A stretch of DNA of 49,184 nt from Salegentibacter tibetensis (lineage in GTDB: Bacteria > Bacteroidota > Bacteroidia > Flavobacteriales > Flavobacteriaceae): NCBI RefSeq assembly GCF_020164485.1, contig NZ_JAIQZA010000033.1, positions 1 to 49,184 on the forward strand. The letters run 5' to 3'. The translations under genes were made by a program, and so were the position numbers. Shown one piece after another: positions 3,901-22,300 of this stretch. A model generated the notes under the pieces. The model searched no databases. It saw nothing but the letters and a program-made list of their open reading frames with translations, and was not told the origin of the DNA. Position 1 is the first letter of the stretch. Every line of letters begins with the position of its first letter.

Positions 3901-4554
3901 ATTAATATCCCCGTCTTTGAAATGAAAAACCGCAGGCGACTCTATAAAACTTCTAAGTTCCTGAGCCATTTTAGAAACCGGTAAAATATAATCTACCATA
4001 CCGGTATTAATTGCACTGTGTGGCATCCCATCAAATTTAGCTTCGTCAGGATCCTGAACCATAATCATTCCATTACGCTCTTTTATTGCCCTTACTCCCC
4101 GGGTCCCATCGCTCCCGGTTCCACTTAAAATTACTCCAATGGCATCTTCCTTTCGCTCCCTGGAAAGTGCTTCAAAGAACATATCTATAGGAAGGTTTAA
4201 ACCTGGCCTTTTCGGTTTTTCTATAAGGTGAAGCTGATTATCTTCAAAAGTTAAATTGTTGACCGGTGGGATTAAGTAAATATGTCCTTGTTTGATGGTT
4301 GTGCGATCTTTAATCTCACGTATGGGCAGATTTGTATTTTTTTTAAGTAGCTCTGCCATCATGCTTTTATGGTCTGGGGAAAGATGCTGAATAACTACAT
4401 ATGCGTTTTTATCGGTTTCGTCTATGCCTTCAAAAAAAGCCTTGAGAGCTTCCAGCCCACCGGCGCTTGCGCCTACCGCAATCACGCGAGGCTCTTCAGT
4501 TTTAAGCTTAGTTTCCAGCTCCGATTTAGAAGGGTAGTTATTTACTTTTGTCAT
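913..4554 (-). CDS. CheB-CheR-PAS hybrid sensor histidine kinase
   Basis: A 1213-residue multidomain signalling protein. In order: CheB methylesterase (about 20-200) with the likely catalytic set Ser30 (GASAGG), His57 (VIQHLSPDH) and Asp149 (GTGSDG); CheR methyltransferase (about 215-480) with the SAM-site motif [11 protein letters not shown] and CRNLLIYF; a Glu-rich coiled coil with repeated ELQ-NEEL units (about 665-735); two PAS domains (about 745-985); a HisKA domain with phospho-acceptor His1005 (SHDLQEP); and a HATPase domain with the N box (NLISNAIKY) and G boxes (DNGYGI, GTGVGL). CheB has no N-terminal receiver domain. No chemoreceptor, CheA or CheW gene is nearby, so a role in classical chemotaxis is unlikely. 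The family is widespread in Bacteroidota and usually of unknown stimulus. The heme oxygenase gene follows on the same strand. Confidence 0.93.
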
Positions 4555-4818: not shown

Positions 4819-4824
4819 TTAAAC

Positions 4825-4867
4825 TGATATATATCATTCCTATTAAAGACTTCTCAACCTAAATTTA
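4825..4867 (+). promoter_or_regulatory. Crp/Fnr-like box and -7 element upstream of the mla operon
   Basis: AACTGAT ATAT ATCAT contains a perfect TGAT-N4-ATCA palindrome at 4825-4836. Exactly 24 bases later comes TAAATTTA (4860-4867), a 7/8 match to the Bacteroidota -7 element TAnnTTTG. The same arrangement recurs upstream of the TerB-like, hsp20 and universal stress genes. That places the box near -41, as in class II activation. Target assignment to mlaE, about 95 bases downstream, is inference. Confidence 0.55.
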
Positions 4868-4890
4868 CTTGCAATGTGAGGTTTAAAATG

Positions 4891-4920
4891 ATTCGAAAAT
4901 ACTTCGGAGTATTTTCGAAT
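4891..4920 (+). other. strong 5'-UTR hairpin before mlaE
   Basis: ATTCGAAAATACT, loop TCGG, AGTATTTTCGAAT: a perfect 13-bp stem. It would lie about 15-45 bases inside the transcript predicted from the upstream -7 element and ends 42 bases before the mlaE ATG. No T-tract follows, so it is not a standard terminator. It may protect the mRNA 5' end, bind a regulator, or control readthrough. Confidence 0.5.
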
Positions 4921-4962
4921 GCTTTCAGGTAACAGCTCTTATAGCTAATAGAATATTTCAAT

Positions 4963-5742
4963 ATGAAATTTTTGTCCTCTTATCAACAAGGTTTTAATTC
5001 CTTTTTCATTGAAATTGGGGAAATGGGAAATTTTATGGGACGGTATTTTCGGGAACTTTTTAGCAGGCCCTTTGAATTTAGGGAATTCCTGAATCAATGT
5101 TACCAGATGGGCAATAAGTCTTTGCTTCTGGTAAGTGTTACCGGGTTTATTTTAGGACTGGTATTTACCCTCCAGTCCAGACCCACATTAATGGAGTTTG
5201 GTGCGGTTTCCTGGATGCCTTCTATGATAAGTATTTCTATTGTTAGAGAAATTGGGCCGGTAATGATTGCACTTATATGTGCCGGACGAATTGGCTCCAG
5301 TATTGGCGCCGAATTAGGTTCCATGAAGGTTACGGAACAAATAGATGCAATGGAAGTTTCAGGGACAAATCCGTTTAAATTCCTGGTAGTTACCAGGGTT
5401 TTAGCGGCAACATGTATGCTGCCAATACTTGTTATAATCGGTGATTTTGTGGCTCTAATAGGTTCTGCAATTATAGAAAATTCGAAAGGCGATGTTTCCT
5501 TTACGCTGTATTTTAACCAGGTATTTGAGGCCCTGGAATTTACTGATCTAATTCCCGCTACTGTAAAAACTTTTTTCTTTGGTTTTGCTATTGGCCTGGT
5601 GGGTTGTTTTAAAGGATATAACAGCAAAAAAGGAACCGCCGGGGTGGGTAAAGCCTCAAATTCGGCAGTGGTTTTCACCTCCATGCTGATATTCGTTCTG
5701 GATTTTATTGCAGTTTTTATTACTGATATTTTTTACAACTAA
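4963..5742 (+). CDS. mlaE: MlaE-type ABC transporter permease
   Basis: Inner-membrane permease of an MCE-type phospholipid transporter that moves lipids between inner and outer membranes. The 259-residue protein has an amphipathic N-terminus and about five hydrophobic segments. It carries the family's conserved central block (REIGPVMIALICAGRIGSSIGAE, about residues 90-112) and a following EQIDAMEVSGTNPF motif typical of MlaE/YrbE. It is the first of four plus-strand genes; the ATPase begins two bases after its stop, so the genes are surely co-transcribed. A strong hairpin and a Crp/Fnr-like box lie upstream. The family is secure; the direction of lipid transport cannot be read from sequence. 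Confidence 0.93.
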   Translation: MKFLSSYQQGFNSFFIEIGEMGNFMGRYFRELFSRPFEFREFLNQCYQMGNKSLLLVSVTGFILGLVFTLQSRPTLMEFGAVSWMPSMISISIVREIGPVMIALICAGRIGSSIGAELGSMKVTEQIDAMEVSGTNPFKFLVVTRVLAATCMLPILVIIGDFVALIGSAIIENSKGDVSFTLYFNQVFEALEFTDLIPATVKTFFFGFAIGLVGCFKGYNSKKGTAGVGKASNSAVVFTSMLIFVLDFIAVFITDIFYN

Positions 5743-5744
5743 AG

Positions 5745-6476
5745 ATGGAAAACAAAGCTGTAATAGAGATAAAGGATTTATATAAAAGTTTTGGGGATCT
5801 TGAAGTACTAAAGGATTTCAATTTAAATCTTTTTAAAGGAGAAAACCTGGTTTTAATGGGCAGATCGGGTTCTGGAAAATCTGTGATGATAAAATGCCTG
5901 GTAGGTTTAATGGGGTTTGATAAGGGCAGCATTAAAGTTTTAGGTAATGACATTTCTAAAATGAAGCAAAATGAACTGGACCAAGTAAGAACCGATATAG
6001 GTTTTTTGTTTCAGGGCAGCGCCCTGTACGATTCTATGACGGTGAGGGAAAACTTAGAATTTCCACTAAGAAGACATCGAAAAAACTCTGAAACTAAAAC
6101 TGAAGCGCTTGTAAAAGAAGCACTTGAAAATGTAGGTTTACCGCAAGCTATAGATCTAATGCCTGCTGAACTTTCGGGAGGAATGCAACGCAGAATTGCT
6201 TTAGCAAGAGCACTAATTTTAAAACCAAAGATCATTATTTATGACGAACCTACTACCGGCCTGGACCCTATTACAGCAAAAGAGATTATTTTATTAATGA
6301 TGAACATACAGAAAAAATATGAAACCTCATCCCTTATAATTACTCATGATGTAGATTGTGCGAGGGTAATTTCAAATAGAATAATTTTATTACTTGACGG
6401 AAAAGATTATGCCGAAGGAAGCTTTAACGATCTGGCGGCATCTGGTGATCCAAAAATTAAAGCATTTTTTAAATAG
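5745..6476 (+). CDS. mlaF: MlaF-type ABC transporter ATP-binding protein
   Basis: Cytoplasmic ATPase (243 residues) that powers the MlaE permease. It shows Walker A GRSGSGKS (about 39-46), a Q-loop within FLFQGSALYDSMTV, the ABC signature LSGGMQRR (about 143-150), Walker B IIIYDEPTTGLDP (about 164-176) and the switch His in ITHD. The Q-loop segment FQ-SALYDSMTVREN is characteristic of MlaF rather than of other importers. It starts two bases after mlaE and ends eight bases before mlaD. Confidence 0.93.
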   Translation: MENKAVIEIKDLYKSFGDLEVLKDFNLNLFKGENLVLMGRSGSGKSVMIKCLVGLMGFDKGSIKVLGNDISKMKQNELDQVRTDIGFLFQGSALYDSMTVRENLEFPLRRHRKNSETKTEALVKEALENVGLPQAIDLMPAELSGGMQRRIALARALILKPKIIIYDEPTTGLDPITAKEIILLMMNIQKKYETSSLIITHDVDCARVISNRIILLLDGKDYAEGSFNDLAASGDPKIKAFFK

Positions 6477-6483
6477 TATAGTT

Positions 6484-7473
6484 ATGAAATCAAATTCCGG
6501 CCGAAATCTAAAACTTGGAATTCTCATTGTCTCCGGGCTCATCGTCTTTACGTTGGGGGTCTATTTCATTGGAAATAAGCAAAACCTGTTCGGGGATTCT
6601 ATTTTGGTAAGTTCAGTATTTAAGAACGTAAATGGCTTGCAGTCTGGCAATAATGTACGTTACTCCGGCGTAAACGTAGGAACTGTAAAAAATATCAAGT
6701 TTTTAAACGATACTGCAATTTGCGTAGATATGCTTATAAACCGGGAAACAGGAAGCCTAATAAAATTTAATTCCCTGGCAACCATAAATTCTGATGGATT
6801 AGTAGGAAGTATGGTCTTAAATATTTTACCCCCAGATAAAGCACCTTCCAGGACTATTGAAGAAGGTGATACGCTTGCCTCGCTTAGCCAGATTGCCACA
6901 GCCGATATGCTTAATACCCTGAACAAAACCAATGAAAATGCAGCGCTTTTAACCGAAGATCTCTTGAAGATTACCAATAGCATTAATGCAGGAGAAGGTG
7001 TTTTAGGTGATTTACTTAAAGATGAAGGTCTTGCAAAAAACATCCAGGAAAGTGCTGAAAATTTAAATCGAACTACTAATTCGGCAAAGGCCGGACTTGC
7101 AAAACTAAATGGTATTTTAAACACAATAGATTATGAGAATAGTGTGGCCGGTTTATTACTCAGCGACTCTACCGCCCAAAAAAGCTTTAGTACCATTATT
7201 GAGGATTTGCAGGCTACTTCTTTACAAATAAAAGAGATTAGTGCAGGTTTGGGACAATTTTCCAATACTTTAAATTCAGAAAAAGGTGCGCTTAATTATG
7301 TAGTTAAAGACACCAGTTTTGTGAATCATCTCGATCAAAGTATGCAAAATATTGAAGAGGCTACTTTTCGCTTTAATGAAAATATGGAAGCTTTAAAGCA
7401 TAACATTTTATTCCGCGGGTATTTTAGAAAACAAGAACGCCAAAAGGCCAGGATGAAAAAAGAGAATCAATAA
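6484..7473 (+). CDS. mlaD: MlaD/MCE-domain lipid-binding protein
   Basis: Periplasmic substrate-binding partner of MlaEF, anchored by a single N-terminal transmembrane helix (GILIVSGLIVFTLGVYFIG, about residues 12-30). An MCE domain follows (about 38-115) with the family pattern GLQSGNNVRYSGVNVGTV. The C-terminal two thirds is a long helical region rich in Asn, Leu and Glu. I chose the ATG at 6484 (329 residues): the longer frame from 6394 would overlap mlaF by 83 bases and add a sequence that lacks MCE character, whereas the chosen start puts the membrane anchor immediately at the N-terminus. The start lies eight bases after the mlaF stop. Confidence 0.9.
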   Translation: MKSNSGRNLKLGILIVSGLIVFTLGVYFIGNKQNLFGDSILVSSVFKNVNGLQSGNNVRYSGVNVGTVKNIKFLNDTAICVDMLINRETGSLIKFNSLATINSDGLVGSMVLNILPPDKAPSRTIEEGDTLASLSQIATADMLNTLNKTNENAALLTEDLLKITNSINAGEGVLGDLLKDEGLAKNIQESAENLNRTTNSAKAGLAKLNGILNTIDYENSVAGLLLSDSTAQKSFSTIIEDLQATSLQIKEISAGLGQFSNTLNSEKGALNYVVKDTSFVNHLDQSMQNIEEATFRFNENMEALKHNILFRGYFRKQERQKARMKKENQ

Positions 7474-7490
7474 TCTTTAAGTGGTTTACT

Positions 7491-7991
7491 ATGAAAATGG
7501 AACATCTGGAAGAGCGGATCAATGAATACAAAAGTTCGATAAAAACGGTGGTAAATAAAAGAATTACCTGGGAAAACAAAACCAAAGAACTTATTATTAC
7601 CACCTTAAAAAAAGCTGAATCTGCTTATTCCGTTGGGTGGAAAGTACAGGAATTGAAATGGATTCACACCAACGAAGCGGTAAATATTACGTTTGATTCT
7701 TTTCCTGCCGATCTTATAGATTTCACCAATAAAATCCCAACCTATCAATTTTTGCAAGGAGGCGCCCTTGTTTTTTCACAATTACATAATGGGGATGTAG
7801 AGGTATTTGTCACATTTCCCATTTTAGAAAATTGGATACTTCCAGAAAATGAAATTGTTGAGTTAGGTGTTTATTCACCAGGTGATATTACAGAAAAACT
7901 AATCGTAGAAAAAATAGATGAATTTTTAAAAGAAATGATTAAATGGGAAGTTCCTATTTTAAAAAACAAGCTTGGTTTTAAAACGCAATAA
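7491..7991 (+). CDS. hypothetical protein at the end of the mla operon
   Basis: A soluble 166-residue protein not recognised by family. It has no signal peptide or membrane segment. The N-terminal 40 residues look helical and charged; the centre alternates hydrophobic strands (VNITFDSFPADLIDF, LVFSQLHNGDVEVFVTF), and the end is helical (KIDEFLKEMIKWEVPIL). It follows mlaD by 17 bases and is probably co-transcribed. That position suggests a link to lipid transport or envelope homeostasis, but nothing in the protein shows a function. Confidence 0.75.
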   Translation: MKMEHLEERINEYKSSIKTVVNKRITWENKTKELIITTLKKAESAYSVGWKVQELKWIHTNEAVNITFDSFPADLIDFTNKIPTYQFLQGGALVFSQLHNGDVEVFVTFPILENWILPENEIVELGVYSPGDITEKLIVEKIDEFLKEMIKWEVPILKNKLGFKTQ

Positions 7992-8017
7992 AATAACCGA
8001 AGCTAAACAGACCTGAC

Positions 8018-8083
8018 ATAAGTTCGGGGCCTTCCTGCGAAAAGGGCAGGCAAGTCCAGGAGCTCCCGATATTTATTGGGATA
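8018..8083. repeat. intergenic palindromic repeat fragment
   Basis: Short inverted pieces (CCTTCCTGC/GGGCAGG and TCCCGATATTTATTGGGA) lie in the 179-base gap between the mla operon and the zinc-ribbon gene. Related motifs (GACCTGAC, TCCCGATAGCCATCGGGA) occur near 48940-49060. It looks like a degraded copy of a dispersed element. I see nothing else in the gap. Confidence 0.4.
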
Positions 8084-8170
8084 AATCTCAATTATCGCGT
8101 AAAAAAATCATATTCGAATTAGAGCTATTGGGTATTAATAGTCCAGATTAAAACTCATTCATTTAGATTG

Positions 8171-8434
8171 CTAAATATTCTCCAACCGCCATCTTTTTAA
8201 CTCGGGAAGTTTTTTTATGAGTTGCTGAGCTTCTTCCAGGCTTATATCTTCGTGCACTTCAGCCATCTCCAATAATTTCACCTCTAATTGATGCAAACTA
8301 AGAGACTTATCGGTGAAAGCTCCATCCTGATAGCAATCCCGACAATAATCGGTATTTACCGACCTATCCCGATTTGTAGCGGCAGTGGCTGTAGTAAACG
8401 GCCAACCACAACTTTGGCAAATTAGCGTATTCAT
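8171..8434 (-). CDS. zinc-ribbon domain protein
   Basis: An 87-residue protein whose N-terminus holds a four-cysteine zinc ribbon: Cys6 and Cys9 (CQSC) with Cys31 and Cys34 (CRDC). The context GWPF...YCRDCYQDGAF is typical of the 'putative zinc ribbon' family (Pfam zf-ribbon_2). The second half is helical and acidic. It follows the TerB-like gene by 57 bases on the same strand and probably shares its promoter with the Crp/Fnr-like box. The molecular role is unknown. Confidence 0.8.
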   Translation of the reverse strand: MNTLICQSCGWPFTTATAATNRDRSVNTDYCRDCYQDGAFTDKSLSLHQLEVKLLEMAEVHEDISLEEAQQLIKKLPELKRWRLENI

Positions 8435-8491
8435 AACCTTATTTTTATTAAAATATATCTAGAAATTTTGGTTAGTTATTTTTTGATTATC

Positions 8492-8902
8492 TCAAGTAGT
8501 AAGTAAAATTTTCAATTTTGAAAGCATAATGAGCTCAGATTTGTTTTTCCCTGCAAATGAAGCTGCAATAGCATCGGCAGTTTCCCAAATTAACTGATTG
8601 ATTTGAACGCTAAATAATCGCTCATTTTCCTTTTTATAGTCTTTAAACTCATTAAAAGCCCAATCTGCTTCCGGCTCATTTTCTTCCAGCCAATCAAAGA
8701 TCATTTCAATTTTATAGGCTTCATCAGTTCCGTATTCATCGGTTAAAGTGTCTATTGGTACCCATTTTTTCTGAACAAGTTCTTTTAAAGTTTTTATTTC
8801 TTCGGGGCGCACCACTTTATCTGATGACGCAATGGCATAGAAAAGCATCCCAATATTTTGGTAGAATTTTTCGGTGAGTACTTGTTTCTTAGAAAGTTCC
8901 AT
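8492..8902 (-). CDS. TerB-like (tellurite resistance family) protein
   Basis: A 136-residue all-helical cytosolic protein resembling the TerB/DjlA-N fold: the early segment IGMLFYAIASSDKVVRPEEIKTLKELV matches the acidic metal-binding helix pair of that family (S-D/D-G-x-E/I-x-P-E-E). Function is usually unknown outside ter operons, and no other ter gene is present here. It is divergent from the crp/fnr gene. On its own side, a perfect TGAT-N4-ATCA box and a TATCTTTA -7 element lie 50 and 19 bases upstream of the ATG. Confidence 0.7.
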   Translation of the reverse strand: MELSKKQVLTEKFYQNIGMLFYAIASSDKVVRPEEIKTLKELVQKKWVPIDTLTDEYGTDEAYKIEMIFDWLEENEPEADWAFNEFKDYKKENERLFSVQINQLIWETADAIAASFAGKNKSELIMLSKLKILLTT

Positions 8903-8920
8903 AATATAATTTTCACCCTT

Positions 8921-8963
8921 TAAAGATAAGTCTCAGACGATTAGCTAAAAATGATAAAAATCA
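8921..8963 (-). promoter_or_regulatory. Crp/Fnr-like box and -7 element of the TerB-like gene
   Basis: Read on the minus strand: AACTGAT TTTT ATCAT (TGAT-N4-ATCA at 8963-8952), then 24 bases later TATCTTTA (8928-8921), 7/8 to TAnnTTTG. Spacing and upstream half-site are identical to those before hsp20 and the universal stress operon. Confidence 0.6.
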
Positions 8964-9014
8964 GTTTTCAGGAAGAAATCCTACCAATTCAGACACATTA
9001 CTAAATTTCATAAA

Positions 9015-9062
9015 ACTGATTTTCAACGTTTTATAATTTTATAAATTTTAAAAATTACTTTG
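9015..9062 (+). promoter_or_regulatory. half-conserved Crp/Fnr-like box upstream of the crp/fnr gene
   Basis: AACTGAT TTTC AACG keeps the invariant upstream half and the TTTC spacer seen at hsp20 and usp, but the downstream half is lost. A TTACTTTG sequence (9055-9062, 7/8 to TAnnTTTG) lies 26 bases beyond it rather than 24. It could give weak autoregulation of the regulator. Confidence 0.35.
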
Positions 9063-9163
9063 TATATTTAAGTATTGCAAAAAGCATTTCTCCCCTTCTC
9101 CCCCCACTAGAGATGTAAAGCAATCCCCAATTATCTTATTTATTAATTTAAATTTCTCCAGAG

Positions 9164-10177
9164 ATGAAGCGTATTCTTTGTATATCGGGAAAAGGTTCCG
9201 GGCATCTAAGTCAAGATGAATTATCGGGTTTAAAAGCCTATGAATGCTTGCAAACCGATTCTTTGAAAAACTTAGAGAATCTAATTACGGAAAAGAAACC
9301 TGATCTGCTTATTTGGGGAAGTAATGCGGAAATTTCTTCTGAAATTTTTAATCGAGCTCTGGAAATGTATAAGATCCCATTATTATCAATTATTACAAAA
9401 GATGAATTTGATAGCTGGAAGCCAATTCACCCTAACCATCACTATTTGCTAAATTTGTATTCACAGGCTGAACTTTTACAAAAAATAGAATTACTACTAA
9501 AACAGAAAAATCTTAATGGCATAGAGAATAAAAAAATTAATAAAACTACTATTTCCAATATTGAGGCTTTAAAATCATATATAGAAGAAAAAGGAGAACG
9601 AATAAGCCTGGATAAACATAAAATTATATTCAGAGAGAATAGGCACTCCAGCTTTATCTATCTTATAAGCAAAGGCCTGGTGAAAACTTCCAGGATGGAC
9701 CAATTGGGGAAAGAATTAATTACCGGGATTTATCGTGAAAATGAACTACTGGGACTTTATGGTTTTCATAAAAACCCCACCTGTCCTGAAATGGCTACAA
9801 CCTTAGAGCCTTCCAAATTATACCGGATTCTGCATAAAGAATTTAGGGAAATACTGCAGGAAAACCAGGGATTAAGCCTGGATATAGCCCAATATTTAAC
9901 CGATACTGTTTTAAGGCTGAAATCACAGCTTCTCGAAATGGCCTATGCTTCAGTATTAAAAAAAACCTCCAATACAATTCTTCAATTTGCCGAAGAATTA
10001 CAAAGCCCGGATTTCCAGGGATTAAGAATTTCCAGAACCGACCTGGCGAGTATTGCTGGAATTTCTCCGGAAAGTTTTATTCGTAGCCTTTCCAGTCTTA
10101 AGAAAGAAGGCATCATTGCCATAAAAGGAAGAAAAATAAATATTCTAAAACCAGAAAGATTACAGGAGATCACCTGA
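9164..10177 (+). CDS. Crp/Fnr-family regulator with N-terminal pseudo-receiver domain
   Basis: A 337-residue transcription factor. Residues 1-118 look like a response-regulator fold, but the phospho-acceptor position is Trp (PDLLIWGSN), so it cannot be phosphorylated in the usual way. A cNMP-binding-like beta barrel follows (about 145-255) and then a Crp-type winged helix (about 265-335). The recognition helix segment GISPESFIRSL keeps the Glu and Arg that in E. coli FNR (E-x-x-S-R) contact the TGA/TCA core; Ile replaces the Ser. The four-Cys iron-sulfur signature of FNR is absent. Boxes of the form AACTGAT-N4-ATCAT lie upstream of several neighbouring genes and are its likely targets. Regulators of this architecture commonly lie beside Hsp20 and Usp genes in flavobacteria. 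The ligand is unknown. Confidence 0.88.
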   Translation: MKRILCISGKGSGHLSQDELSGLKAYECLQTDSLKNLENLITEKKPDLLIWGSNAEISSEIFNRALEMYKIPLLSIITKDEFDSWKPIHPNHHYLLNLYSQAELLQKIELLLKQKNLNGIENKKINKTTISNIEALKSYIEEKGERISLDKHKIIFRENRHSSFIYLISKGLVKTSRMDQLGKELITGIYRENELLGLYGFHKNPTCPEMATTLEPSKLYRILHKEFREILQENQGLSLDIAQYLTDTVLRLKSQLLEMAYASVLKKTSNTILQFAEELQSPDFQGLRISRTDLASIAGISPESFIRSLSSLKKEGIIAIKGRKINILKPERLQEIT

Positions 10178-10276
10178 TCTTAATTTTTTGTTAAACATTG
10201 ATTTCCTGATATTTGTCATTTTTTTCGAGTATGTTTTAAGCTACTTTTAAAATATTAATCAGCATAACAAAAATAT

Positions 10277-10451
10277 AATTTGATTTCTATGTACTTGTTA
10301 GAGTTTGAAAATCAAATTTAGAAGGTATCAAAGGTATTTTTTAGCCTGATATTCAAATTTTACTTCGTGTATTATCACTGATATCAACCAAGTGTTAAAT
10401 AGTACACTTAATATCTTCTTAAGAAACAGGAGGCAATGGTCTCCTGTTTCT
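10277..10451. other. structured 395-bp intergenic region between crp/fnr and hsp20
   Basis: Three inverted repeats lie in a row: AATTTGATTT/AAATCAAATT (10277-10286 and 10309-10318), AAGTGT/ACACTT (10390-10395 and 10404-10409), and a perfect 11-bp stem AGAAACAGGAG/CTCCTGTTTCT with an 8-base loop (10422-10432 and 10441-10451). The last could terminate crp/fnr transcription, though its T-tract is weak, or end a small RNA. No coding frame is convincing here. Confidence 0.35.
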
Positions 10452-10486
10452 GTGTTTAAAAGGCTTTTCTATAAAATTCAAATAAC

Positions 10487-10529
10487 TGATTTTCATCATA
10501 TTAAATATCATTTTTAGATTTTAAATTAG
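10487..10529 (+). promoter_or_regulatory. Crp/Fnr-like box and -7 element of hsp20
   Basis: AACTGAT TTTC ATCAT gives a perfect TGAT-N4-ATCA at 10487-10498. TAAATTAG (10522-10529, 7/8 to TAnnTTTG) follows after the same 23-base gap as at the other sites. The hsp20 ATG is 44 bases further on. Confidence 0.6.
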
Positions 10530-10572
10530 TGTGCTTAATTGTAAATTATTAACCATTTAAAATCTAAATATT

Positions 10573-11052
10573 ATGTCTATCATTAAATCTAACAATCGCA
10601 GAACTCCTGCCCTGGGACGTTCAATTTTGGCAAACGATCCATTCTTTTCTGACTTATTGGACACCAAAAGAGGAATCTTTAATCTTAACAGGTTCTTTAA
10701 TGGAGATTTTGACCAGGATCTATTTCCGGCACTAAATGTAAAGGAAAAAGAGACCGAGTTTGAAATAGAACTTGCAGCTCCAGGACTTTCTAAACAAGAT
10801 TTTAAAATTTCTATAGAGGAAGGCATCTTATCCATCTCGGCAGAAAAAGAAAATAAAGTCGAAGAAGAAAAAGAAGGTTTCGTAAGAAAAGAGTTTAGCT
10901 ACAATAGTTTTTCCAGGCAAATTGCTCTACCCGAAGAAGTAGATATGGAAAAAGAAGTTGAAGCGAAATACAAGGAAGGTATTTTAAAAATGAGTCTGAA
11001 GAAAAGAAAAATAGATAAGTCTAAAAAGACTAAAACTGTAAATGTGTCTTAA
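10573..11052 (+). CDS. Hsp20/alpha-crystallin small heat shock protein
   Basis: ATP-independent holdase chaperone of 159 residues. It has a short N-terminal region followed by an alpha-crystallin domain (about 52-145). Visible family marks are the ELAAPGLSKQDFKISIEEGILSI strand pair and the conserved end motif YKEGILKMSLKK. The C-terminal tail is lysine-rich and shows no clear I-x-I anchor. The gene stands alone between its own Crp/Fnr-like promoter and a strong terminator, so it is probably monocistronic and induced together with the usp operon. Confidence 0.95.
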   Translation: MSIIKSNNRRTPALGRSILANDPFFSDLLDTKRGIFNLNRFFNGDFDQDLFPALNVKEKETEFEIELAAPGLSKQDFKISIEEGILSISAEKENKVEEEKEGFVRKEFSYNSFSRQIALPEEVDMEKEVEAKYKEGILKMSLKKRKIDKSKKTKTVNVS

Positions 11053-11056
11053 AAAA

Positions 11057-11093
11057 ATGAAACAATCCCGAAATTTTTTCGGGATTGTTTCAT
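11057..11093 (+). terminator. rho-independent terminator after hsp20
   Basis: ATGAAACAATCCCG and its exact complement CGGGATTGTTTCAT form a 14-bp stem with a 9-base loop, starting five bases after the hsp20 stop. A-rich sequence on the left makes it potentially usable from the opposite strand for the WG-repeat gene. Confidence 0.75.
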
Positions 11094-11203
11094 ATTATAT
11101 CTGTACGATACATCAACAACTTATATCTTTAAACAACTTCATGAGCAGGCCCTTAAACAAGTCCAGAAAGATGGTGACTTAAAATTCAGCAGTCACCTCC
11201 GTT

Positions 11204-11338
11204 TTAAAAATTATGAACCCGCCATTTTTTATTGGGGCCTTTCACACTCACTACATTTTCTCCCAACCATTTAGCCTCGATCTTTGGTGCTTCCCTTAAT
11301 TTCTGTTTGGATACAGCAACCGGAAATGGACCTTCTAA
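11204..11338 (-). pseudogene. out-of-frame 3' end of the WG-repeat gene
   Basis: Shifting frame by one base at about 11336-11339 replaces the odd ending RRSISGCCIQTE... with EGPFPVAVSKQKLREAP, followed further on by KWLGENVVSVKGPNKKWRV and a stop at 11204-11206. This reads as ordinary protein and continues past the premature stop, so it is very likely the original C-terminus. Removing one A would restore a frame of about 206 residues. Confidence 0.65.
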
Positions 11339-11825
11339 ATTTTAGTATTTCACCATTTTTATCAATTACAACCACATCATATTTATAAGAAAGCACATTC
11401 TTTCCCAGAAGTGGGTTTTCTCCAAGTCTCTCTTCTTCCAGTTTTAGCGCCAGGGCTTTTCCATTTGAGAAGTTGGTTACATTTAAAAATTCAGGCTCAA
11501 TAACTGTTTTTCCTTCCACATTTATAAATCCGTAATAATTAACGCCATCGTGCTGTTTTCTAATAATAGCCCGTTCATCTTTTAGTTGCGGAAATTTCAT
11601 TCCCGCTACGCCAATATTTCCCCTTTTCGGCTTTTCATTGACAATAAGATCGTTCCTAAGCTCAAATACCAGTTCGCCGTTGGCATTTAAAAACCCCCAA
11701 CTATTACCTTGTTGTACTGCGGTGAATCCATTCTCCTGACTGGCTACAAAATCAAATTCTTTCGGCTCCTGTGCAAATAACGCAAACGGAATACTTATTA
11801 AGATTCCAAAAATTAAATTTCTCAT
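11271..11825 (-). CDS. exported WG-repeat protein, frameshifted near the 3' end
   Basis: A secreted protein with a clear signal peptide (MRNLIFGILISIPFALFAQ). WG-repeat units follow, recognisable by NSWGFLNANGELVFE and VNYYGFINVEGKTVIEPEF. WG repeats are beta-hairpin modules found in many exported Bacteroidota proteins of unknown function. The uninterrupted frame is 184 residues, but its last 23 residues look unlike the family; a +1 shift recovers a plausible tail. Either the gene is mutated or the base call is wrong. It is divergent from the usp operon. Confidence 0.75.
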   Translation of the reverse strand: MRNLIFGILISIPFALFAQEPKEFDFVASQENGFTAVQQGNSWGFLNANGELVFELRNDLIVNEKPKRGNIGVAGMKFPQLKDERAIIRKQHDGVNYYGFINVEGKTVIEPEFLNVTNFSNGKALALKLEEERLGENPLLGKNVLSYKYDVVVIDKNGEILKFRRSISGCCIQTEIKGSTKDRG

Positions 11826-11944
11826 TGTTCAAAGTTTTATAATTAACATTAAATTTAGCGCAATTGTCTGTATTTAAATATGATACCCGTCATACTACGC
11901 CAAAGCTCTTATAAAATGTAAAGGCTTAAAAAACAGAAACAAAC

Positions 11945-11987
11945 TGATTTTCCTCATAGTTTAAACTTACCTCATCGGTTAACTTTA
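11945..11987 (+). promoter_or_regulatory. Crp/Fnr-like box and -7 element of the usp operon
   Basis: AACTGAT TTTC CTCAT (7 of 8 core bases, 11945-11956) followed after 23 bases by TAACTTTA (11980-11987, 7/8 to TAnnTTTG). The first usp ATG is 20 bases beyond the -7 element, implying a very short leader. Confidence 0.6.
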
Positions 11988-12006
11988 TAATTCAAAGTTC
12001 CAGAAG

Positions 12007-12861
12007 ATGAGAAAGATAATTATACCCACCGACTTTTCAGAAAATGCAAATAACGCATTGCGGTTTGCCTGTCAACTTTTTAAGTATGAAAAGAGCGAAG
12101 TCATTCTTTTGCATGCCTACGCAGAAAAGGTTTATACCGATGAAAGTTTGCTAAGCAATGAATTAATGGATGAGTTCAAAGCCGTCACCAAAGAAAAGAC
12201 TGACATGGCCCTGGCTGAAATAAGTTCGACAATTCACGATGAATTTTGTAATCCCAGGCACAGCATTAAATCTATTGCTGCTTTTGGCGATCTGGTAGAT
12301 GAGGTAAATAACCTCGTGAATTTAGAAAATGCCGATATTGTTATCATGGGAACCCGGGGTGCCACCAACGACAGGAACCTGGGTTTTGGAAGTAATACCT
12401 TACTCGTCTTAAAATATGTGCAATGTCCGGTTTTGGCAATTCCGGCGAATTTCAAATATAAGGAACCAAAAAAAATCCTGTTTCCTACCAATTTTTTAAT
12501 TCCCTATCAAAAAAGGGAATTAAAAATCGTTGGTGAAATTGCCCGGGATTTTAAATCTAAAATTCACTTTCTCTATTTATCTAAACATAAAGCAACTTCA
12601 GCCAGGCAAAAAGATAATCTTGAGTTTTTAAAACAACAGTTCTATAATATAAAGGTAGAAGAATACCAGAACGAGGAACTACATAAAGAAAAAGCAATAG
12701 AAGAATTTATTGCTACCAATAAAATAGATCTTTTAGTGATGGTAAATTCCCGCCACACGTATTTAGAAGATATGCTGCTGACTTCTACTATAGACAAAGT
12801 GGGTTTACATCCAAAAGTACCCTTACTTGTTCTGCAAAATTTTAATAGGGAATGCAATTAA
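12007..12861 (+). CDS. tandem universal stress protein (UspA), first of three
   Basis: A 284-residue cytosolic protein made of two UspA domains. The first (1-145) begins KIIIPTDFSENANNAL and has the full ATP-binding motif G-x2-G-x9-G-S/T (GTRGA...FGSNT). The second (about 155-284) starts ILFPTNFLIPYQ but lacks the glycine motif (LVMVNSRHTYLEDM), so it is probably non-binding. It is the lead gene of a tightly spaced operon with two paralogues, an ATP-cone nuclease and a beta-CASP hydrolase. A Crp/Fnr-like promoter lies just upstream. Usp proteins usually aid survival under energy or oxygen limitation. Confidence 0.93.
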   Translation: MRKIIIPTDFSENANNALRFACQLFKYEKSEVILLHAYAEKVYTDESLLSNELMDEFKAVTKEKTDMALAEISSTIHDEFCNPRHSIKSIAAFGDLVDEVNNLVNLENADIVIMGTRGATNDRNLGFGSNTLLVLKYVQCPVLAIPANFKYKEPKKILFPTNFLIPYQKRELKIVGEIARDFKSKIHFLYLSKHKATSARQKDNLEFLKQQFYNIKVEEYQNEELHKEKAIEEFIATNKIDLLVMVNSRHTYLEDMLLTSTIDKVGLHPKVPLLVLQNFNRECN

Positions 12862-12873
12862 AACATAGAAATC

Positions 12874-13722
12874 ATGAAAAAAATACTCTTACCCACAGAT
12901 TTTTCAGAAAACGCATATAACGCTATTTCTTATGCATTAAAAGCCTTTCAGGATGAAGAATGTACTTTTTATCTTCTGAATACCTATACCCCTGTTTTAT
13001 ATGATTCTGAATATATTTTATATAACAGCACTCAGCCAAACCTTGCTGACGCTTACAAGAAAAATTCCCTTGCGGGGTTGAGAAAAGTAGAACGAAAAAT
13101 AAACCGTGATTTTAAAAACTCAAAACATAAATTTGAGAAAATTTCAGCTTTCAATCTTTTGATAGATGAGATGAAAGAACAATTGAATTCTAAAGAAATA
13201 GACCTGGTAGTTATGGGAACGCAGGGCGCAACAGGCGCTGAAGAGATTTTAATCGGCACCAATACGGTACACGCTATAAATAAGCTAAAAGCCCCTCTGT
13301 TAATGATTCCTTCTGAGTATGAATACCACCCTCCGGTAAACATTTTATTCCCTACAGATTTCGATTTGCATTTTAGTGCTCCTCAACTGGACCCTATCTT
13401 AATCTTTGCAAGAAACCATACTTCAAAAATAAATATGCTACACGTTTTCTTAGGAAAAGATCTGGATGAAGAACAGGAAAAAAATAAGAAAAACCTAAGC
13501 AAAATTCTAAAGGACATTACACATCAATTTTATACCGTTGAGGATAAAAGTGTGACTAAAGCCATTAAAAAGTTTCAGGAACAAAACACGGTAGACTTAG
13601 TTTTGATGGTGAACAACAAACGTAGCTTCTTTGAAAACCTACTATTTAGGCCGGTAGTGAATAAAATAGGTTTTCATATTAAAGTTCCATTTATGGTAAT
13701 CCCATCGGGAAAATTTAATTAG
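12874..13722 (+). CDS. tandem universal stress protein (UspA), second of three
   Basis: A 282-residue paralogue of the preceding gene, 12 bases downstream. Domain 1 starts KILLPTDFSENAYNAI and keeps G-x2-G-x9-G-T (GTQGA...IGTNT). Domain 2 (from about NILFPTDFDLHF) has VLMVNNKRSFFENLLF in place of the ATP loop. The sequences have diverged well beyond a recent duplication, so the three copies probably have distinct partners or conditions. Confidence 0.93.
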   Translation: MKKILLPTDFSENAYNAISYALKAFQDEECTFYLLNTYTPVLYDSEYILYNSTQPNLADAYKKNSLAGLRKVERKINRDFKNSKHKFEKISAFNLLIDEMKEQLNSKEIDLVVMGTQGATGAEEILIGTNTVHAINKLKAPLLMIPSEYEYHPPVNILFPTDFDLHFSAPQLDPILIFARNHTSKINMLHVFLGKDLDEEQEKNKKNLSKILKDITHQFYTVEDKSVTKAIKKFQEQNTVDLVLMVNNKRSFFENLLFRPVVNKIGFHIKVPFMVIPSGKFN

Positions 13723-13724
13723 TT

Positions 13725-14558
13725 ATGAAAAATATACTCATCCCCACCGATTTTTCGGCTAACGCCTGGAAAGCTACAGTTTATGCATTTAGCTTTTTTC
13801 AAAATGAGCTTTGCGATTTTTATTTTTTAAATGCCTGCAAACCGGAATTTTATACTCCCGATATTAATGGGAAAAGTTTATTACAGGCTAAAGCTGAAAA
13901 TAAGATAAAAATGGATAAGCTGCTGAAAGAAGTAGCTGTGATAAACAAGAACCAAAATCATAGGTTTAAATGGATAATTTTAGAATCCTGGTTAAACGAT
14001 TCGGTAATTGAAATTCAAAAAGAAAATATTTTTGATCTCATAGTGATGGGCACAAAAGGCGAGACCAAACCCGATGACAGGATCTTTGGCACTAATAGTA
14101 TGAATGTGATAGAAACGGTAGATCACCTGCCGGTTCTATTAATACCAGAACAAAGTGTTTTTGTACCCGAGGTGAAAAAAGAGATGGTTATGGCTACACG
14201 TTATGACAAGTCGTTTTCTATTGCAGAGATTAATTTTTTGATAGATATGGCTAAAAAATTTAAAGCCAGTATTAGAATTTTATATATCCAGGATACCGAA
14301 AAACTTACTGAGGAGCAAGAAAATAAAAAAGAAGAATTACACGAATATTTTAAGGAAGTCACCCATAGTTTCCACACCCTGACTAATATAGAAGTTACTA
14401 AAGGAATTCATAGTTTCATTCAAAGCAGGAACAGCGATATATTGGTGTTAAACCATAAGAAAAGAGGATTTTTTAGAAATCTTTTTTCCAAATCTTTACT
14501 CAAAGAATTAGGGAGAAAACCGCAAATCCCCATCCTGTTTATGCCTTCAGATTTATAG
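13725..14558 (+). CDS. tandem universal stress protein (UspA), third of three
   Basis: A 277-residue paralogue beginning two bases after the second copy, which implies translational coupling. Domain 1 starts NILIPTDFSANAWKAT and keeps G-x2-G-x9-G-T (GTKGE...FGTNS). Domain 2 is the most degenerate of the three: it opens with MVMATRYDKSF instead of a PTDF motif, and its end reads LVLNHKKRGFFRNLF. The operon continues 36 bases downstream. Confidence 0.92.
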   Translation: MKNILIPTDFSANAWKATVYAFSFFQNELCDFYFLNACKPEFYTPDINGKSLLQAKAENKIKMDKLLKEVAVINKNQNHRFKWIILESWLNDSVIEIQKENIFDLIVMGTKGETKPDDRIFGTNSMNVIETVDHLPVLLIPEQSVFVPEVKKEMVMATRYDKSFSIAEINFLIDMAKKFKASIRILYIQDTEKLTEEQENKKEELHEYFKEVTHSFHTLTNIEVTKGIHSFIQSRNSDILVLNHKKRGFFRNLFSKSLLKELGRKPQIPILFMPSDL

Positions 14559-14594
14559 TTTCAAAATCTATTATTCTACAAAAAAACCATTAAA

Positions 14595-15431
14595 ATGGAT
14601 ATCTCCAATCTAAAAGTTATAAAAGCTTCAGGCGAAAAAGCTCAGTTTTCCATTGAACGGGTTGCAGAGTCCTTGAGACGCTCTGGTGCAAATGAAGAAT
14701 TGATTCAAAAAACACTTCAGAAGCTAAAAGCAGAACTTTATAATGGAATTTCTACCAAAGAAATTTATAATCGGGCCTTTAGTTTGCTTAAAGAAGGAAA
14801 TAAAACCATTGCCTCAAAATATAAGTTAAAGACCGCTATTTATGAACTGGGCCCAACCGGGTTTCCGTTTGAAAAATTTATAGCGGCGCTTTTAACCCAT
14901 AGCGGCTATAAAACGGCCACGGGGAAAACATATCAGGGAAAATGCGTAACCCACGAAATTGATGTGGAAGCAAAAACCGGTACTAAACTTGTGTTAATAG
15001 AGTGTAAATTTCACAATGCCGGTAGAAATTGTGATGTAAAAATTCCTCTTTATATAGATTCAAGGTTTCGGGATATAAAAAATTTCAGAAATAACGGACA
15101 TAACAAACTGGACTTTGAAGAAGGTTGGGTCGTAACCAACACCCGGTTTACTGCAGATGCTGTAAAATATGCCAAATGCGCCAATCTTAAATTATTAAGC
15201 TGGGATTACCCAAAGGGCGAAGGTATTAAAGATAGAGTAGACAAACTTGGTCTATATCCAATAACGGTTTCAACTTTACTTTCAGAAAGGGAAAAAAACT
15301 TTTTATTAAGCCGGGATGTGGTATTATGTCAGGAGCTTATTGATGACACCTTCTATCTGGATCATTTAGGAATTAATAATCCACGTAAAAATAAAATTCT
15401 CAAAGAAATGAAAGAACTCTGTAAACACTAG
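14595..15431 (+). CDS. ATP-cone domain fused to an Mrr-like PD-(D/E)XK nuclease
   Basis: A 278-residue soluble protein. Residues 5-85 form an ATP-cone, the nucleotide-sensing module of NrdR and class I/III ribonucleotide reductases (VIKASGEKAQFSIERVAESLRRSGA). Residues about 88-205 resemble a restriction-endonuclease-like fold: GFPFEKFIAALL followed by the candidate catalytic set Asp123, Glu136 and Lys138 (EIDV, IECKFH). The rest (SERE-NFLLSRDVVLCQEL) is helical. The architecture suggests nucleic-acid cleavage gated by ATP/dATP level. It is co-transcribed with three Usp genes upstream and a beta-CASP hydrolase five bases downstream. Cleavage activity and substrate are inference. Confidence 0.85.
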   Translation: MDISNLKVIKASGEKAQFSIERVAESLRRSGANEELIQKTLQKLKAELYNGISTKEIYNRAFSLLKEGNKTIASKYKLKTAIYELGPTGFPFEKFIAALLTHSGYKTATGKTYQGKCVTHEIDVEAKTGTKLVLIECKFHNAGRNCDVKIPLYIDSRFRDIKNFRNNGHNKLDFEEGWVVTNTRFTADAVKYAKCANLKLLSWDYPKGEGIKDRVDKLGLYPITVSTLLSEREKNFLLSRDVVLCQELIDDTFYLDHLGINNPRKNKILKEMKELCKH

Positions 15432-15436
15432 AAAAG

Positions 15437-16810
15437 ATGGAAAACAAGGTGAAGATTCATTTTCTTGGTGCTTCGGGTACAGTTACCGGATCTAAATTTC
15501 TTTTAGAAACACCAGAACTAAATATCTTAATTGACTGCGGGCTTTTTCAGGGAGTTAAAAGTTTACGTAAACTCAACTGGAAAAATTTCCCTTTTGATCC
15601 TGCAGCCATTGACCTGATTTTACTAACCCACGGTCACCTGGATCACACGGGATATTTACCACGTCTTGTGAAACAAGGTTATAAAAACGCAATTTTAGGA
15701 ACACCACCAACTTTAGGAATTGCCGGGGTGATCTTAAAAGATAGTGCGAAAATACAGGAAGAAGATGCCGAAAGAGCAAATAAGGAAGAATACAGCAAGC
15801 ACCAACCGGCTTTACCTTTATACTCTTTGCGTGATGCTGAAAAAACGATAGGTTTATTTAAAAATATTGAGTTGAATGAGTGGTACCATGTTTCAGAAAA
15901 TATAAAATATAGATATCAAACCAACGGCCATATCTTAGGCTCGACTTTTATTGAATTGGATATTTATAAAAAGCTTTTTGTATTTTCAGGAGATGTTGGC
16001 AGAGATAAAGATTTACTTTTGGAAGCGCCCAAAAAACCAGAATGGGCCGATTACCTCTTTCTGGAAAGTACTTATGGTGACCTGCTTCACCCCAAAGACG
16101 ATTCAGATGAAATTCTTATTAAAGCCATAAAAGATACGCTCAACCAAAAGGGGAATCTTATAATTCCGAGTTTCGCCGTAGAACGTTTACAGGGGATTAT
16201 GTATAAGCTTTACCTCTTAATCAAAAAAAATAAAATCCCTGAAATTCCCATTTATATAGATAGTCCTATGGGAAATGAGGTACTTGGCTTATTTGAAAGT
16301 TTCAGCAAGTGGCACAAACTAGAGGCTGCTGAATTTAGAAAAATGCTTTCTTATTTTAATATTATTACCTTGTATCGGGATACCTGGAAAACAATAGATG
16401 AGAACAGGCCAAAAGTAGTGATTGCCGGCAGCGGAATGGTTACCGGGGGGCGGGTCCTCACCTATTTGCGGTATTTAATAAATAAACCTGAAACGACTGT
16501 TTTACTAGCAGGCTACCAGGCAGAGGGTACAAGGGGAAGGCAATTGGAAAACGGAGCTTCAGAAATAAAAATCTTCGGAAAATATTGCCCGGTGAGAGCG
16601 AAAATCTTAAAAATTGAAAGTCTCTCTGCTCATGCCGATCAGCAAGAATTGCTGGATTGGGTTTCAGCAATTAAGAAAATTCCGGAAAAGGTATTTTTAA
16701 TTCACGGGGAACCCACAGCCTTAGATACTTTAAGAGTAAAAATTAAAGATCTGTATAAATGCGAGGTTACAATTCCGGCACTTGATGATATTATAAGCTT
16801 AAAGCTCTGA
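15437..16810 (+). CDS. beta-CASP metallo-beta-lactamase-fold hydrolase (RNA-processing type)
   Basis: A 457-residue cytosolic hydrolase of the CPSF/RNase J superfamily. It opens FLGASGTVTGSKFLLE and carries the zinc motif His65-x-His67-x-Asp69-His70 (THGHLDH), a downstream metal His in NGHILGST and an Asp in FSGDVGRD. The beta-CASP insert (about 190-370) shows LESTYGD and SPMGNEV. The C-terminal motifs SAHADQQELLDW and IHGEP complete the RNA-metabolising set. Family members are exo- or endoribonucleases. As the last gene of the stress operon it may adjust RNA turnover under the same conditions. Confidence 0.92.
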   Translation: MENKVKIHFLGASGTVTGSKFLLETPELNILIDCGLFQGVKSLRKLNWKNFPFDPAAIDLILLTHGHLDHTGYLPRLVKQGYKNAILGTPPTLGIAGVILKDSAKIQEEDAERANKEEYSKHQPALPLYSLRDAEKTIGLFKNIELNEWYHVSENIKYRYQTNGHILGSTFIELDIYKKLFVFSGDVGRDKDLLLEAPKKPEWADYLFLESTYGDLLHPKDDSDEILIKAIKDTLNQKGNLIIPSFAVERLQGIMYKLYLLIKKNKIPEIPIYIDSPMGNEVLGLFESFSKWHKLEAAEFRKMLSYFNIITLYRDTWKTIDENRPKVVIAGSGMVTGGRVLTYLRYLINKPETTVLLAGYQAEGTRGRQLENGASEIKIFGKYCPVRAKILKIESLSAHADQQELLDWVSAIKKIPEKVFLIHGEPTALDTLRVKIKDLYKCEVTIPALDDIISLKL

Positions 16811-20434: not shown

Positions 20435-22300
20435 ATGAAAAAAGCTATTTATACGCTGGCGTTTATTTGCGCCCTTTACAGTTGTAAAACCACACAAACC
20501 TCAGAAAAAGCTCAACCGGTAATTGCAAGTATAGACCTTGTAAATATTGTAGAAGACAAAGTTTCGGTAACAGTAGATCCCGATAGGTTCACCACTGAAA
20601 ATACCACTTTCTATATTCCTAAAACTGTTCCCGGCACCTACTCTATAGATAACTACGGAAAATTTATCGAAAATTTTAAAGCCCTGGATTATGATGGAAA
20701 TGAACTGGAGTTTGAAAAAATAGACGATAATTCCTGGACAATTCCAAATGCCGCAAACTTAGACAAAGTAAGTTATCAGGTTAATGATACTTATGACATT
20801 GAAGGCGAAGAAGGTGTGTTCTCACCCTCAGGAACCAATATTGAAGCCGGAGAAAACTTTATGCTTAACCTCCACGGTTTTGTAGGGTATTTTGAAAATG
20901 AACAGGAAGAAGCTTATCGTTTGGAAATTAAAAGACCACATGGTCTAATCCCTGGAACGGCTTTAAGTAAAACTGTTGCAGCTTCAGACAATATGGAGTT
21001 TAAAGAAGATATTTATTCTTTAAGTCGGTATTTTGAAGTAATAGATAACCCAATTATGTATGCCAAACCAGATACCACCAGTTTTATGGTAGAAGGAATG
21101 GAAGTACTTATCAATGTATATTCTCCTAATGAAGTATATACTTCAGAAAGTATAAAACCGGGGATCCAGGAGATGATTAGCGCACAGAAACGCTTTTTAG
21201 GAGAAGTAGACAATACCGGAAAATATGCTATTCTATTATATCTTTCAGATAGCGAAAAGCAGGATGCCCGTGGTTTTGGAGCTTTAGAACACCACACCTC
21301 TACCGTGGTTGTGCTTCCGGAGTCTATGCAGCCCGATCAATTACAAAAAACAATGACAGATGTGGTTTCTCACGAGTTCTTCCACATTTTAACTCCGCTA
21401 AATGTTCATTCAGAAGAAGTTCATTATTTCGATTATAACGACCCGAAAATGTCCCAGCATTTATGGATGTATGAAGGTGTTACCGAGTATTTTGCAAACC
21501 TGTTTCAGATCAACCAGGAGTTAATTGAAAAGCAGGATTTTTATGATCGGATTTCAGAGAAAATAAAAACTGCGCAACAGTTTGACGATACCATGCCATT
21601 TACTGAAATGAGCAAAAATATCCTTGAAGATCCTTATAAAAACAGTTATTATAATGTGTACCAAAAAGGAGCCTTAATTGGGATGGCCCTTGATATTCGT
21701 TTAAGGGAATTAAGTGATGGAGAAATGGGAATTCTTGATCTTATGAAAGCCTTAAGCGATAAATACGGGATGGATAAACCATTTAAGGATGATGAATTGT
21801 TTGATGATATCGTTGAGCTAACTTATCCTGAATTAAGAACTTTCCTGGAAACTTATGTTAGCGGAACTACTCCCATTCCTTACAATGAATTTTTCGCAAA
21901 AGTAGGCCTCGAAGAATCTGAGACTGAAATCAACACCGGCTATTTTATAAAAGGCCAAACTCCTTATATAGACGGCGATCCTGCCAAAGGTGAGTTGTTT
22001 TTTAGAAAAAATATTCAATTTAATTCTTTTCTTCAGGAGCTTGACGTGAAAGGGGGCGATGTAATTAAAACTGTAAACAATGAAAAATATAATATTCAGA
22101 ATGTTTATAATTTAATAATGACTGCTGAATCCTGGGAACAAGGAGAAGAAGTTAGCTTTGTGGTAATGCGAGACGGGAAAGAATTAGAACTCACCGCAAC
22201 AACTGCACAGCCTACAGATACCGACACCACAATTACAGAAAAAAGCCTGCCTGAAAGCAGCGAAGAAGTCAAACTTAGAAATGCCTGGTTAAAAGGTTAA
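20435..22300 (+). CDS. M61-family glycyl aminopeptidase lipoprotein
   Basis: A 621-residue zinc peptidase probably anchored in the envelope: the N-terminus MKKAIYTLAFICALYSC is a lipoprotein signal with Cys17 as the lipidated residue. The catalytic zinc motif is His313-Glu-Phe-Phe-His317 (SHEFFHILTPLNVHSE), with the further Glu expected in MYEGVTEYFANL. The N-terminal beta domain and a C-terminal PDZ-like domain (about 520-600, DVKGGDVIKTVNNE) give the typical M61 layout. It stands alone, with a dispersed repeat and a terminator downstream. The substrate is unknown. Confidence 0.92.
   Translation: MKKAIYTLAFICALYSCKTTQTSEKAQPVIASIDLVNIVEDKVSVTVDPDRFTTENTTFYIPKTVPGTYSIDNYGKFIENFKALDYDGNELEFEKIDDNSWTIPNAANLDKVSYQVNDTYDIEGEEGVFSPSGTNIEAGENFMLNLHGFVGYFENEQEEAYRLEIKRPHGLIPGTALSKTVAASDNMEFKEDIYSLSRYFEVIDNPIMYAKPDTTSFMVEGMEVLINVYSPNEVYTSESIKPGIQEMISAQKRFLGEVDNTGKYAILLYLSDSEKQDARGFGALEHHTSTVVVLPESMQPDQLQKTMTDVVSHEFFHILTPLNVHSEEVHYFDYNDPKMSQHLWMYEGVTEYFANLFQINQELIEKQDFYDRISEKIKTAQQFDDTMPFTEMSKNILEDPYKNSYYNVYQKGALIGMALDIRLRELSDGEMGILDLMKALSDKYGMDKPFKDDELFDDIVELTYPELRTFLETYVSGTTPIPYNEFFAKVGLEESETEINTGYFIKGQTPYIDGDPAKGELFFRKNIQFNSFLQELDVKGGDVIKTVNNEKYNIQNVYNLIMTAESWEQGEEVSFVVMRDGKELELTATTAQPTDTDTTITEKSLPESSEEVKLRNAWLKG

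Follow-up and report, generated by a model that had tools for sequence, protein, structure and literature searches.

A predicted class II low-oxygen regulon of Flavobacteriaceae, probably run by a FixL-like kinase and a receiver-Crp regulator and including a candidate structured small RNA

The stretch of Salegentibacter tibetensis DNA analysed here (the window, 49,184 nucleotides, nt) carries predicted binding sites of the Crp/Fnr type, each followed by a putative promoter box. The site is the 16-mer AACTGATN4ATCAT and the box is a TAnnTTTG-like -7 element. Six such sites were packed into 7.1 kb of the window. Taken together with the related genomes described below, they point, with a probability of roughly three in four, to a class II low-oxygen regulon of Flavobacteriaceae that is run by a FixL-like kinase and a regulator joining a receiver to a Crp/Fnr-type output (receiver-Crp), and that includes a structured small RNA.

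The first site (4822..4837, +) is an exact 16-mer with its box at 4860-4867 (TAAATTTA, 7/8 match) and precedes mlaE (4963..5742, +), a permease gene recognised by Pfam and the first gene of an mla operon. An exact copy on the opposite strand (8951..8966, -; box 8928-8921, TATCTTTA, 7/8 match) stands before the gene of a TerB-like protein (8492..8902, -), after which comes a zinc-ribbon gene (8171-8434). They are followed by the gene of a Crp/Fnr-type regulator with a degenerate receiver-like N-terminus (9164..10177, +), hereafter the window regulator, which was assigned by Pfam, receiver residues, tree and structure model. Downstream of it lies a site with no gene behind it (TCCTGATATTTGTCAT, 10204..10219, +; box 10242-10249, TACTTTTA; 22-nt spacing). 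It precedes a predicted small RNA of about 200 nt (10254..10457, +), the 5' end of which is inferred from the -7 box, with a conserved core at 10318-10457 and a terminator-like hairpin at about 10422-10451. This block is located between the 10204 site and hsp20 (10573..11052, +; Pfam), which has an exact site of its own (10484..10499, +; box 10522-10529, TAAATTAG, 7/8 match). A WG-repeat protein gene (11271..11825, -; Pfam) is preceded by site GTATGACGGGTATCAT (11880..11895, -; box 11857-11850, again TAAATTTA; 22-nt spacing). The sixth site, with one mismatch (11942..11957, +; box 11980-11987, TAACTTTA, 7/8 match), precedes a usp operon (12007..16810, +) of three usp-type genes, an ATP-cone/Mrr gene and a beta-CASP metallo-hydrolase gene; Pfam recognised the first usp, the ATP-cone/Mrr and the beta-CASP genes, the second and third usp being named by resemblance only.

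A sequence-only reading of this DNA had placed sites before mlaE, the TerB-like gene, hsp20 and the usp operon. All four were found again and Pfam agreed with its mlaE, hsp20 and usp, leaving the TerB-like label weak (Pfam TerB E 0.095, below the cut-off). The sites at 10204 and 11895-11880, and the RNA behind one of them, had been overlooked. Divergent to the mlaE site, an open reading frame (ORF) of 1213 residues (913-4554) resembles, by eye, a CheB/CheR-PAS-kinase protein; an orthologue occupies this place in several loci of the genus. A further match to a looser pattern (one mismatch, 20754-20799) falls inside a long ORF and was taken as chance.

Promoter geometry proved as rigid as had been proposed. 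At the four sites noted originally, the 7/8 box starts on the 24th base past the last core base, i.e. 22 nt separate the 16-mer from the box. The companion claim of an invariant, gene-facing upstream half AACTGAT held in its orientation, since the half faces the gene at each of these four sites; it is not invariant across the regulon, because the 10204 and 11895-11880 sites lack it. The site alone was only a weak signal in the window (12 matches with at most two mismatches vs 6.9 expected, a number reached by 5 of 100 shuffles), which indicates that the signal is carried by the spacing. When spacers of 8-36 nt were allowed, 53 of the 56 matches from nine same-genus genomes displayed 22 nt, many of the 56 being orthologous promoters and hence not independent; in the S. 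tibetensis genome itself all seven matches did so. The three exceptions had spacers of 15, 16 and 28 nt, the last two being second matches at sites that also have a 22-nt one, which leaves a single independent exception. For CRP and FNR, class II sites are classically centred at -41.5. In a transcription-start map of Flavobacterium psychrophilum, TAnnTTTG occupies -12 to -5 (PMC9723704). With the first T of the box at -12, a 22-nt spacer puts the site centre at about -41.5, and the predicted sites thus fit the FNR-type class II promoter position.

The regulon had initially been considered a local one, a view that a scan of the whole genome overturned. The exact 16-mer occurred four times in the 4.21-Mb genome, three of them in the window. 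Site plus box with up to three mismatches yielded 27 matches, vs 3 for the reversed pattern; ORFs of at least 100 residues contained none of the 15 matches with 0-2 mismatches, but 10 of the 12 with three. Eleven of the 15 best matches lay outside the window, and the composite of site and box (at most two mismatches) was present in 49 of 60 related genomes. Among the targets were a gene for a fused cbb3 oxidase (with COX1 and FixO domains) and the adjoining P-type ATPase, a radical SAM gene of HemN type, a fasciclin gene with the nos cluster behind it, a 128-residue protein ahead of PEP synthase, the ribosome hibernation factor HPF, two more usp genes, two short-chain dehydrogenases, of which one was checked with Pfam, and a protein of the heavy-metal-associated kind; nhaA (NhaA) and an NrfH-like gene stood at three-mismatch sites. 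To judge from the genes so marked, the targets apparently form a low-oxygen set, in a regulon that is genome-wide and extends over Flavobacteriaceae.

Orthologous promoters were compared within the genus. The site was kept before mlaE in all eight loci where mlaE was found (9/9 counting the window), and in nine of nine loci (10/10) before the TerB-like gene, before the usp operon and before the RNA, in the last case 27 nt past the stop codon of the regulator gene. Loci that keep hsp20 always displayed its site (5/5, or 6/6 with the window), and those that keep the WG-repeat gene did so in six of seven cases (7/8).

The window regulator belongs to the Crp/Fnr superfamily (PF00027, 2.8e-12; PF13545, 1.1e-13). 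A Crp/Fnr-type regulon with FNR-like half sites, as suggested by the sequence-only reading, is thus borne out, and so are the features it ascribed to this protein: the recognition helix keeps Glu and Arg, both invariant in our alignment (A6), and the cysteines (6, 28 and 207) do not form an FNR cluster. Eight HTH_Crp_2 matches, seven above the cut-off, were recorded in the genome. Two of its Crp proteins displayed a receiver or receiver-like N-terminus, namely the window regulator and a 343-residue paralogue on contig C1 (PF00072, PF00027 and PF13545), the only cysteine of which is Cys 51; an N-terminal cysteine cluster of the kind that carries the iron-sulphur centre in FNR was found in neither.

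The C1 paralogue has an intact receiver, in which D9, D10, D52 and K104 (acidic pair, phospho-aspartate and lysine) are kept. All four are absent from the window regulator. Its clade comprises ten genus proteins, of which none had both acidic residues, none had the lysine and eight were devoid of the phospho-aspartate, L138 and L141 having an aspartate at that column. In the tree, these ten same-genus proteins formed a clade (support 100/100) with three intact-receiver proteins as its sister group (joint clade 100/99), and both were nested in the main receiver-Crp clade (99/98). A structure model displayed five alternating strands and helices, which is the receiver element order, with block values of the predicted local distance difference test of 61-86 over residues 1-110. 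Foldseek of the whole model was tried as independent support for a receiver and set aside, as the 50 matches shown were all Crp/Fnr-type proteins; the receiver assignment therefore relies on homology and on the order of elements in the model. By these comparisons, the window regulator is a descendant of the receiver-Crp family, a duplicate whose receiver has decayed. Since its DNA-reading helix was kept while the receiver was lost, it should bind and read the same sites independently of phosphorylation. The orthologue in L141 (6034-7176) reached 380 residues by the first-start rule, vs 332-337 in the rest of the clade, which is probably a start-site matter.

The gene of the C1 paralogue lies directly behind that of a 410-residue PAS histidine kinase and ahead of a site and a usp gene. 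Its product was 77% identical to a protein of Salegentibacter flavus and 76-78% identical to those of genomes G001, G003 and G011; in G011, the gene was found at both contig ends (probably an unclosed circle). At least 548 relatives of the paralogue were confirmed in the genome collection, of which the best 80 were analysed as named loci, their genes being recognised by BLAST against the S. tibetensis proteins. These 80 loci belong to flavobacteria, or to flavobacterial or Bacteroidia bins. In 76 of them the kinase was directly upstream of receiver-Crp; in 77, the first recognised gene to follow, at no more than 400 nt, was usp. Between regulator and usp, a site with at most one mismatch was located in 66 loci, and one with at most two in 76. 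Altogether, the 80 loci contained 239 sites, vs 0 for the reversed pattern.

The PAS domain of the S. tibetensis kinase found FixL structures as its best matches in a PDB search (2.3e-17), followed by DosP. The FixL heme histidine aligned with His68, and this kinase has both the FixL-type heme-ligand histidine and the arginine near the bound oxygen. Among the 76 adjacent kinases, His68 was conserved in 75 (one gap) and the equivalent of FixL Arg220 was an arginine in 67. Receiver-Crp, paired with the FixL-like kinase, is thereby suggested as the likely main reader of the sites.

In an alternative explanation, the window regulator alone would read the sites, the signal being a small ligand or the oxidation state. 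This protein is flanked by three of the four exact sites of the genome, retains the Glu and Arg of the recognition helix and is conserved together with the sites in nine same-genus loci; moreover, its L138 and L141 orthologues still have the aspartate in the phospho-acceptor column. We nevertheless regard this explanation as unlikely, given that 11 of the 15 best matches are elsewhere in the genome, that G006, which is of the same genus, keeps eight sites with no such protein among the matches listed, and that other genera carry the same site and spacing beside an intact receiver-Crp. The adjacent regulator had been proposed earlier as the one acting on these promoters. The G006 sites, and the widespread pairing of sites with intact receiver-Crp and FixL-like kinase, make it improbable that this protein is the sole or principal reader.

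Many relatives instead carry a cysteine-bearing Fnr-like protein; a search with one such protein matched 31 of the 60 genomes at E 1e-30. The seven cysteine-type proteins inspected (L126-L131 and L133) all displayed the spacing C-x2-C-x45-C-x52-C, which differs from that of E. coli FNR. Mean site counts were 11.9 in the 16 genomes with receiver-Crp only, 9.0 in the five with both regulators, 3.9 in the 24 with the cysteine type only and 1.1 in the 15 with neither; means for the reversed pattern ranged from 0.1 to 0.5 across these groups. Many relatives with the cysteine type carry an ATATGAT version of the site. The base before TGAT was C in 96 of the 135 sites listed for nine receiver-Crp genomes of the genus, vs 19 of 107 in eleven cysteine-type genomes, where A was the leading base with 69 (Fisher p 5e-17, a value inflated by shared descent).

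Several observations weigh against a low-oxygen regulon run by receiver-Crp and the FixL-like kinase. Counts across relatives are not independent, and the group of 15 with neither regulator includes, besides the incomplete G008, 13 genomes of at most 2.0 Mb, so that genome size is mixed into the comparison. G008 itself (61% complete) has seven sites and no full-length receiver-Crp among the matches listed. Conversely, G011, which is of the same genus, has the receiver-Crp gene but a single site with at most two mismatches, or five by a looser pattern. Kinases devoid of the heme histidine occur in L123, and in L147 and L153, where the neighbouring receiver-Crp proteins are more divergent. Finally, a third Crp/Fnr-type protein (198 residues, contig C122) could share the work, because its helix (V-E-T-V-I-R) is similar, it is encoded near the nos cluster and it is absent from G011. 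It appears highly improbable that this third protein, possibly acting as a nitric-oxide sensor, would itself be the main reader. It has the appropriate helix and occurs in 13 of the 15 genus genomes, being missing from G011 where sites are few, but no match at E 1e-20 was found in G015, G025, G032, G035 and G036, which contain 13, 10, 11, 4 and 6 sites, respectively, and in the named loci the gene that separates kinase and usp is a different one.

The block at 10254-10457 seems to be a structured small RNA behind a regulon site, undescribed so far. Its core displayed a mean identity of 93.6% over ten genus loci, whereas ten neighbouring genes reached 68-83% and the flanks 46-59%. A long hairpin is followed by a conserved terminator-like hairpin of 13 base pairs, ahead of hsp20's own site. 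Compared with shuffles, the window copy folded better by 5.5 standard deviations. Once three more divergent copies had been added, nine of 49 pairs were changed on both sides, which none of 500 shuffles reached; 98.6% of the cells of this alignment pair, and slid versions yielded 0-3 covarying pairs. No gathering-score match to Rfam 15 was obtained for window positions 8000-12100 or for 20 loci with distant or divergent copies.

A covariance model detected the RNA in 28 of 299 family genomes, representing 26 of 236 genera, at E 1e-3. BLAST over the same 299 genomes recovered copies of full or nearly full length in the sampled genus members and G021 alone; in a further six genomes, its matches were limited to the terminator end and resembled chance, until the structure model matched whole or partial copies there. 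When 23 divergent copies were folded singly, most formed a long hairpin and then a terminator-like one, which is not independent support because these copies were picked by the structure model. Copies were often in tandem, up to four on one strand. In G169, four copies on one strand were accompanied by a fifth match on the other strand, over a terminator. L285, from another genus, displayed three consecutive copies with differing terminator stems (1025-1644) and two sites upstream of the last copy.

The covariance model holds no promoter. At 19 of 24 RNA loci of other genera, the same strand nonetheless carried a site with 22-nt spacing no more than about 600 nt upstream, vs 0 of 24 for the reversed pattern. 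Distances from box to RNA were 53-78 nt in seven loci, 257-291 in six and 438-470 in four (two fell elsewhere), as would be expected of first, second and third copies. In control positions around these copies, a site occurred downstream on the same strand at 14 of 24 loci and upstream on the opposite strand at 2 of 24; the upstream excess is thus in part a neighbourhood effect of a site-rich strand. It is very unlikely that the block would instead serve as an hsp20 regulatory leader or encode a short protein: it does lie just upstream of hsp20 in the window, and in several relatives its 3' part is traversed by short frames that start with GTG and are about 22 codons long, but no small ORF has a frame common to all ten loci, the conserved terminator-like hairpin precedes hsp20's own site, the RNA and its site persist in four of the ten loci in which no hsp20 gene was found (L138, L139, L140 and L142), base changes preserve the pairs and distant copies are so often tandem.

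In the mechanism that we infer from these sequences, low oxygen would cause the FixL-like heme-PAS histidine kinase to phosphorylate a response regulator with Crp/Fnr output, the jobs of FixL, FixJ and FixK being compressed into two proteins. The activated dimer would bind [A][A/C]CTGAT-N4-ATCAT and would activate, rather than repress, by acting on RNA polymerase from about -41.5. High-affinity respiration, denitrification, stress proteins (usp, hsp20 and the ribosome hibernation factor) and transcription of the small RNA would be switched on. The window regulator would add a duplicate with decayed receiver and preserved DNA-reading helix, able to occupy these sites in unphosphorylated form. 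A more specific evolutionary scenario seems to us evenly poised between right and wrong. According to it, the FixL-like kinase and receiver-Crp took over promoters that belong to an iron-sulphur Fnr-like protein in sister genera, with a shift from A to C before TGAT, a noncoding RNA arm of tandem hairpin-plus-terminator units, and the decayed-receiver duplicate as a second, phosphorylation-independent input.

The FixL-FixJ-FixK system is the oxygen cascade of rhizobia, with a site TTGA-N6-TCAA; FixL binds heme and halts its kinase activity once oxygen is bound, and FixJ is a receiver joined to a LuxR-type helix-turn-helix. The predicted flavobacterial system resembles it in that its PAS kinase has the heme histidine and the arginine of FixL, its DNA-binding output is of Crp/Fnr type and its targets are of the cbb3, hemN and nos kinds. 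It differs by the fusion of receiver and Crp part, the output being Crp-type instead of the LuxR-type of FixJ and no FixJ-type step being seen between kinase and Crp output, as well as by its phylum (Bacteroidota) and its site (CTGAT-N4-ATCAT). FNR/ANR regulons are known for a TGAT-N4-ATCA core, position -41.5 and low-oxygen targets, all three of which are shared here. Yet the S. tibetensis receiver-Crp proteins lack an FNR-like cysteine cluster, the cysteine-bearing type being a separate protein in many relatives.

The RNA recalls FnrS, an FNR-dependent small RNA, by its position behind an FNR-type site, and departs from it by the lack of an Rfam match, by the long hairpin plus terminator-like hairpin and by its frequent tandem arrangement; it was searched for, and found, in one bacterial family. 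Flavo-1 is an Rfam family and was absent among Rfam matches up to E 1 for the RNA loci. Both Rfp18 and Flavo-1 were reported as structured RNAs of Flavobacteriaceae (PMC9723704), the bacterial family to which the candidate RNA of the window belongs as well. Receiver domains without the aspartate are also known (aspartate-less receivers, PMC4395418). They resemble the N-terminus of the window regulator, which is modelled with the receiver element order and has no phospho-aspartate; here, in contrast, decay is placed after the split from intact-receiver regulators and two of nine genus orthologues retain the aspartate. Term counts gave zero occurrences of Fnr or Crp in the main text of PMC9723704, and titles and abstract starts of open-licence literature disclosed no receiver-Crp or FixL-like kinase controlling flavobacterial low-oxygen genes.

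Flavobacteriaceae form a major part of marine bacterial communities. For the predicted low-oxygen regulon of this family, the present analysis names the sites, a likely sensor, a likely regulator, targets that include nitrous-oxide reductase, and a candidate RNA family. It may also offer a natural case of a regulon that swapped its sensor while its promoters stayed, and of a receiver that decayed after duplication.

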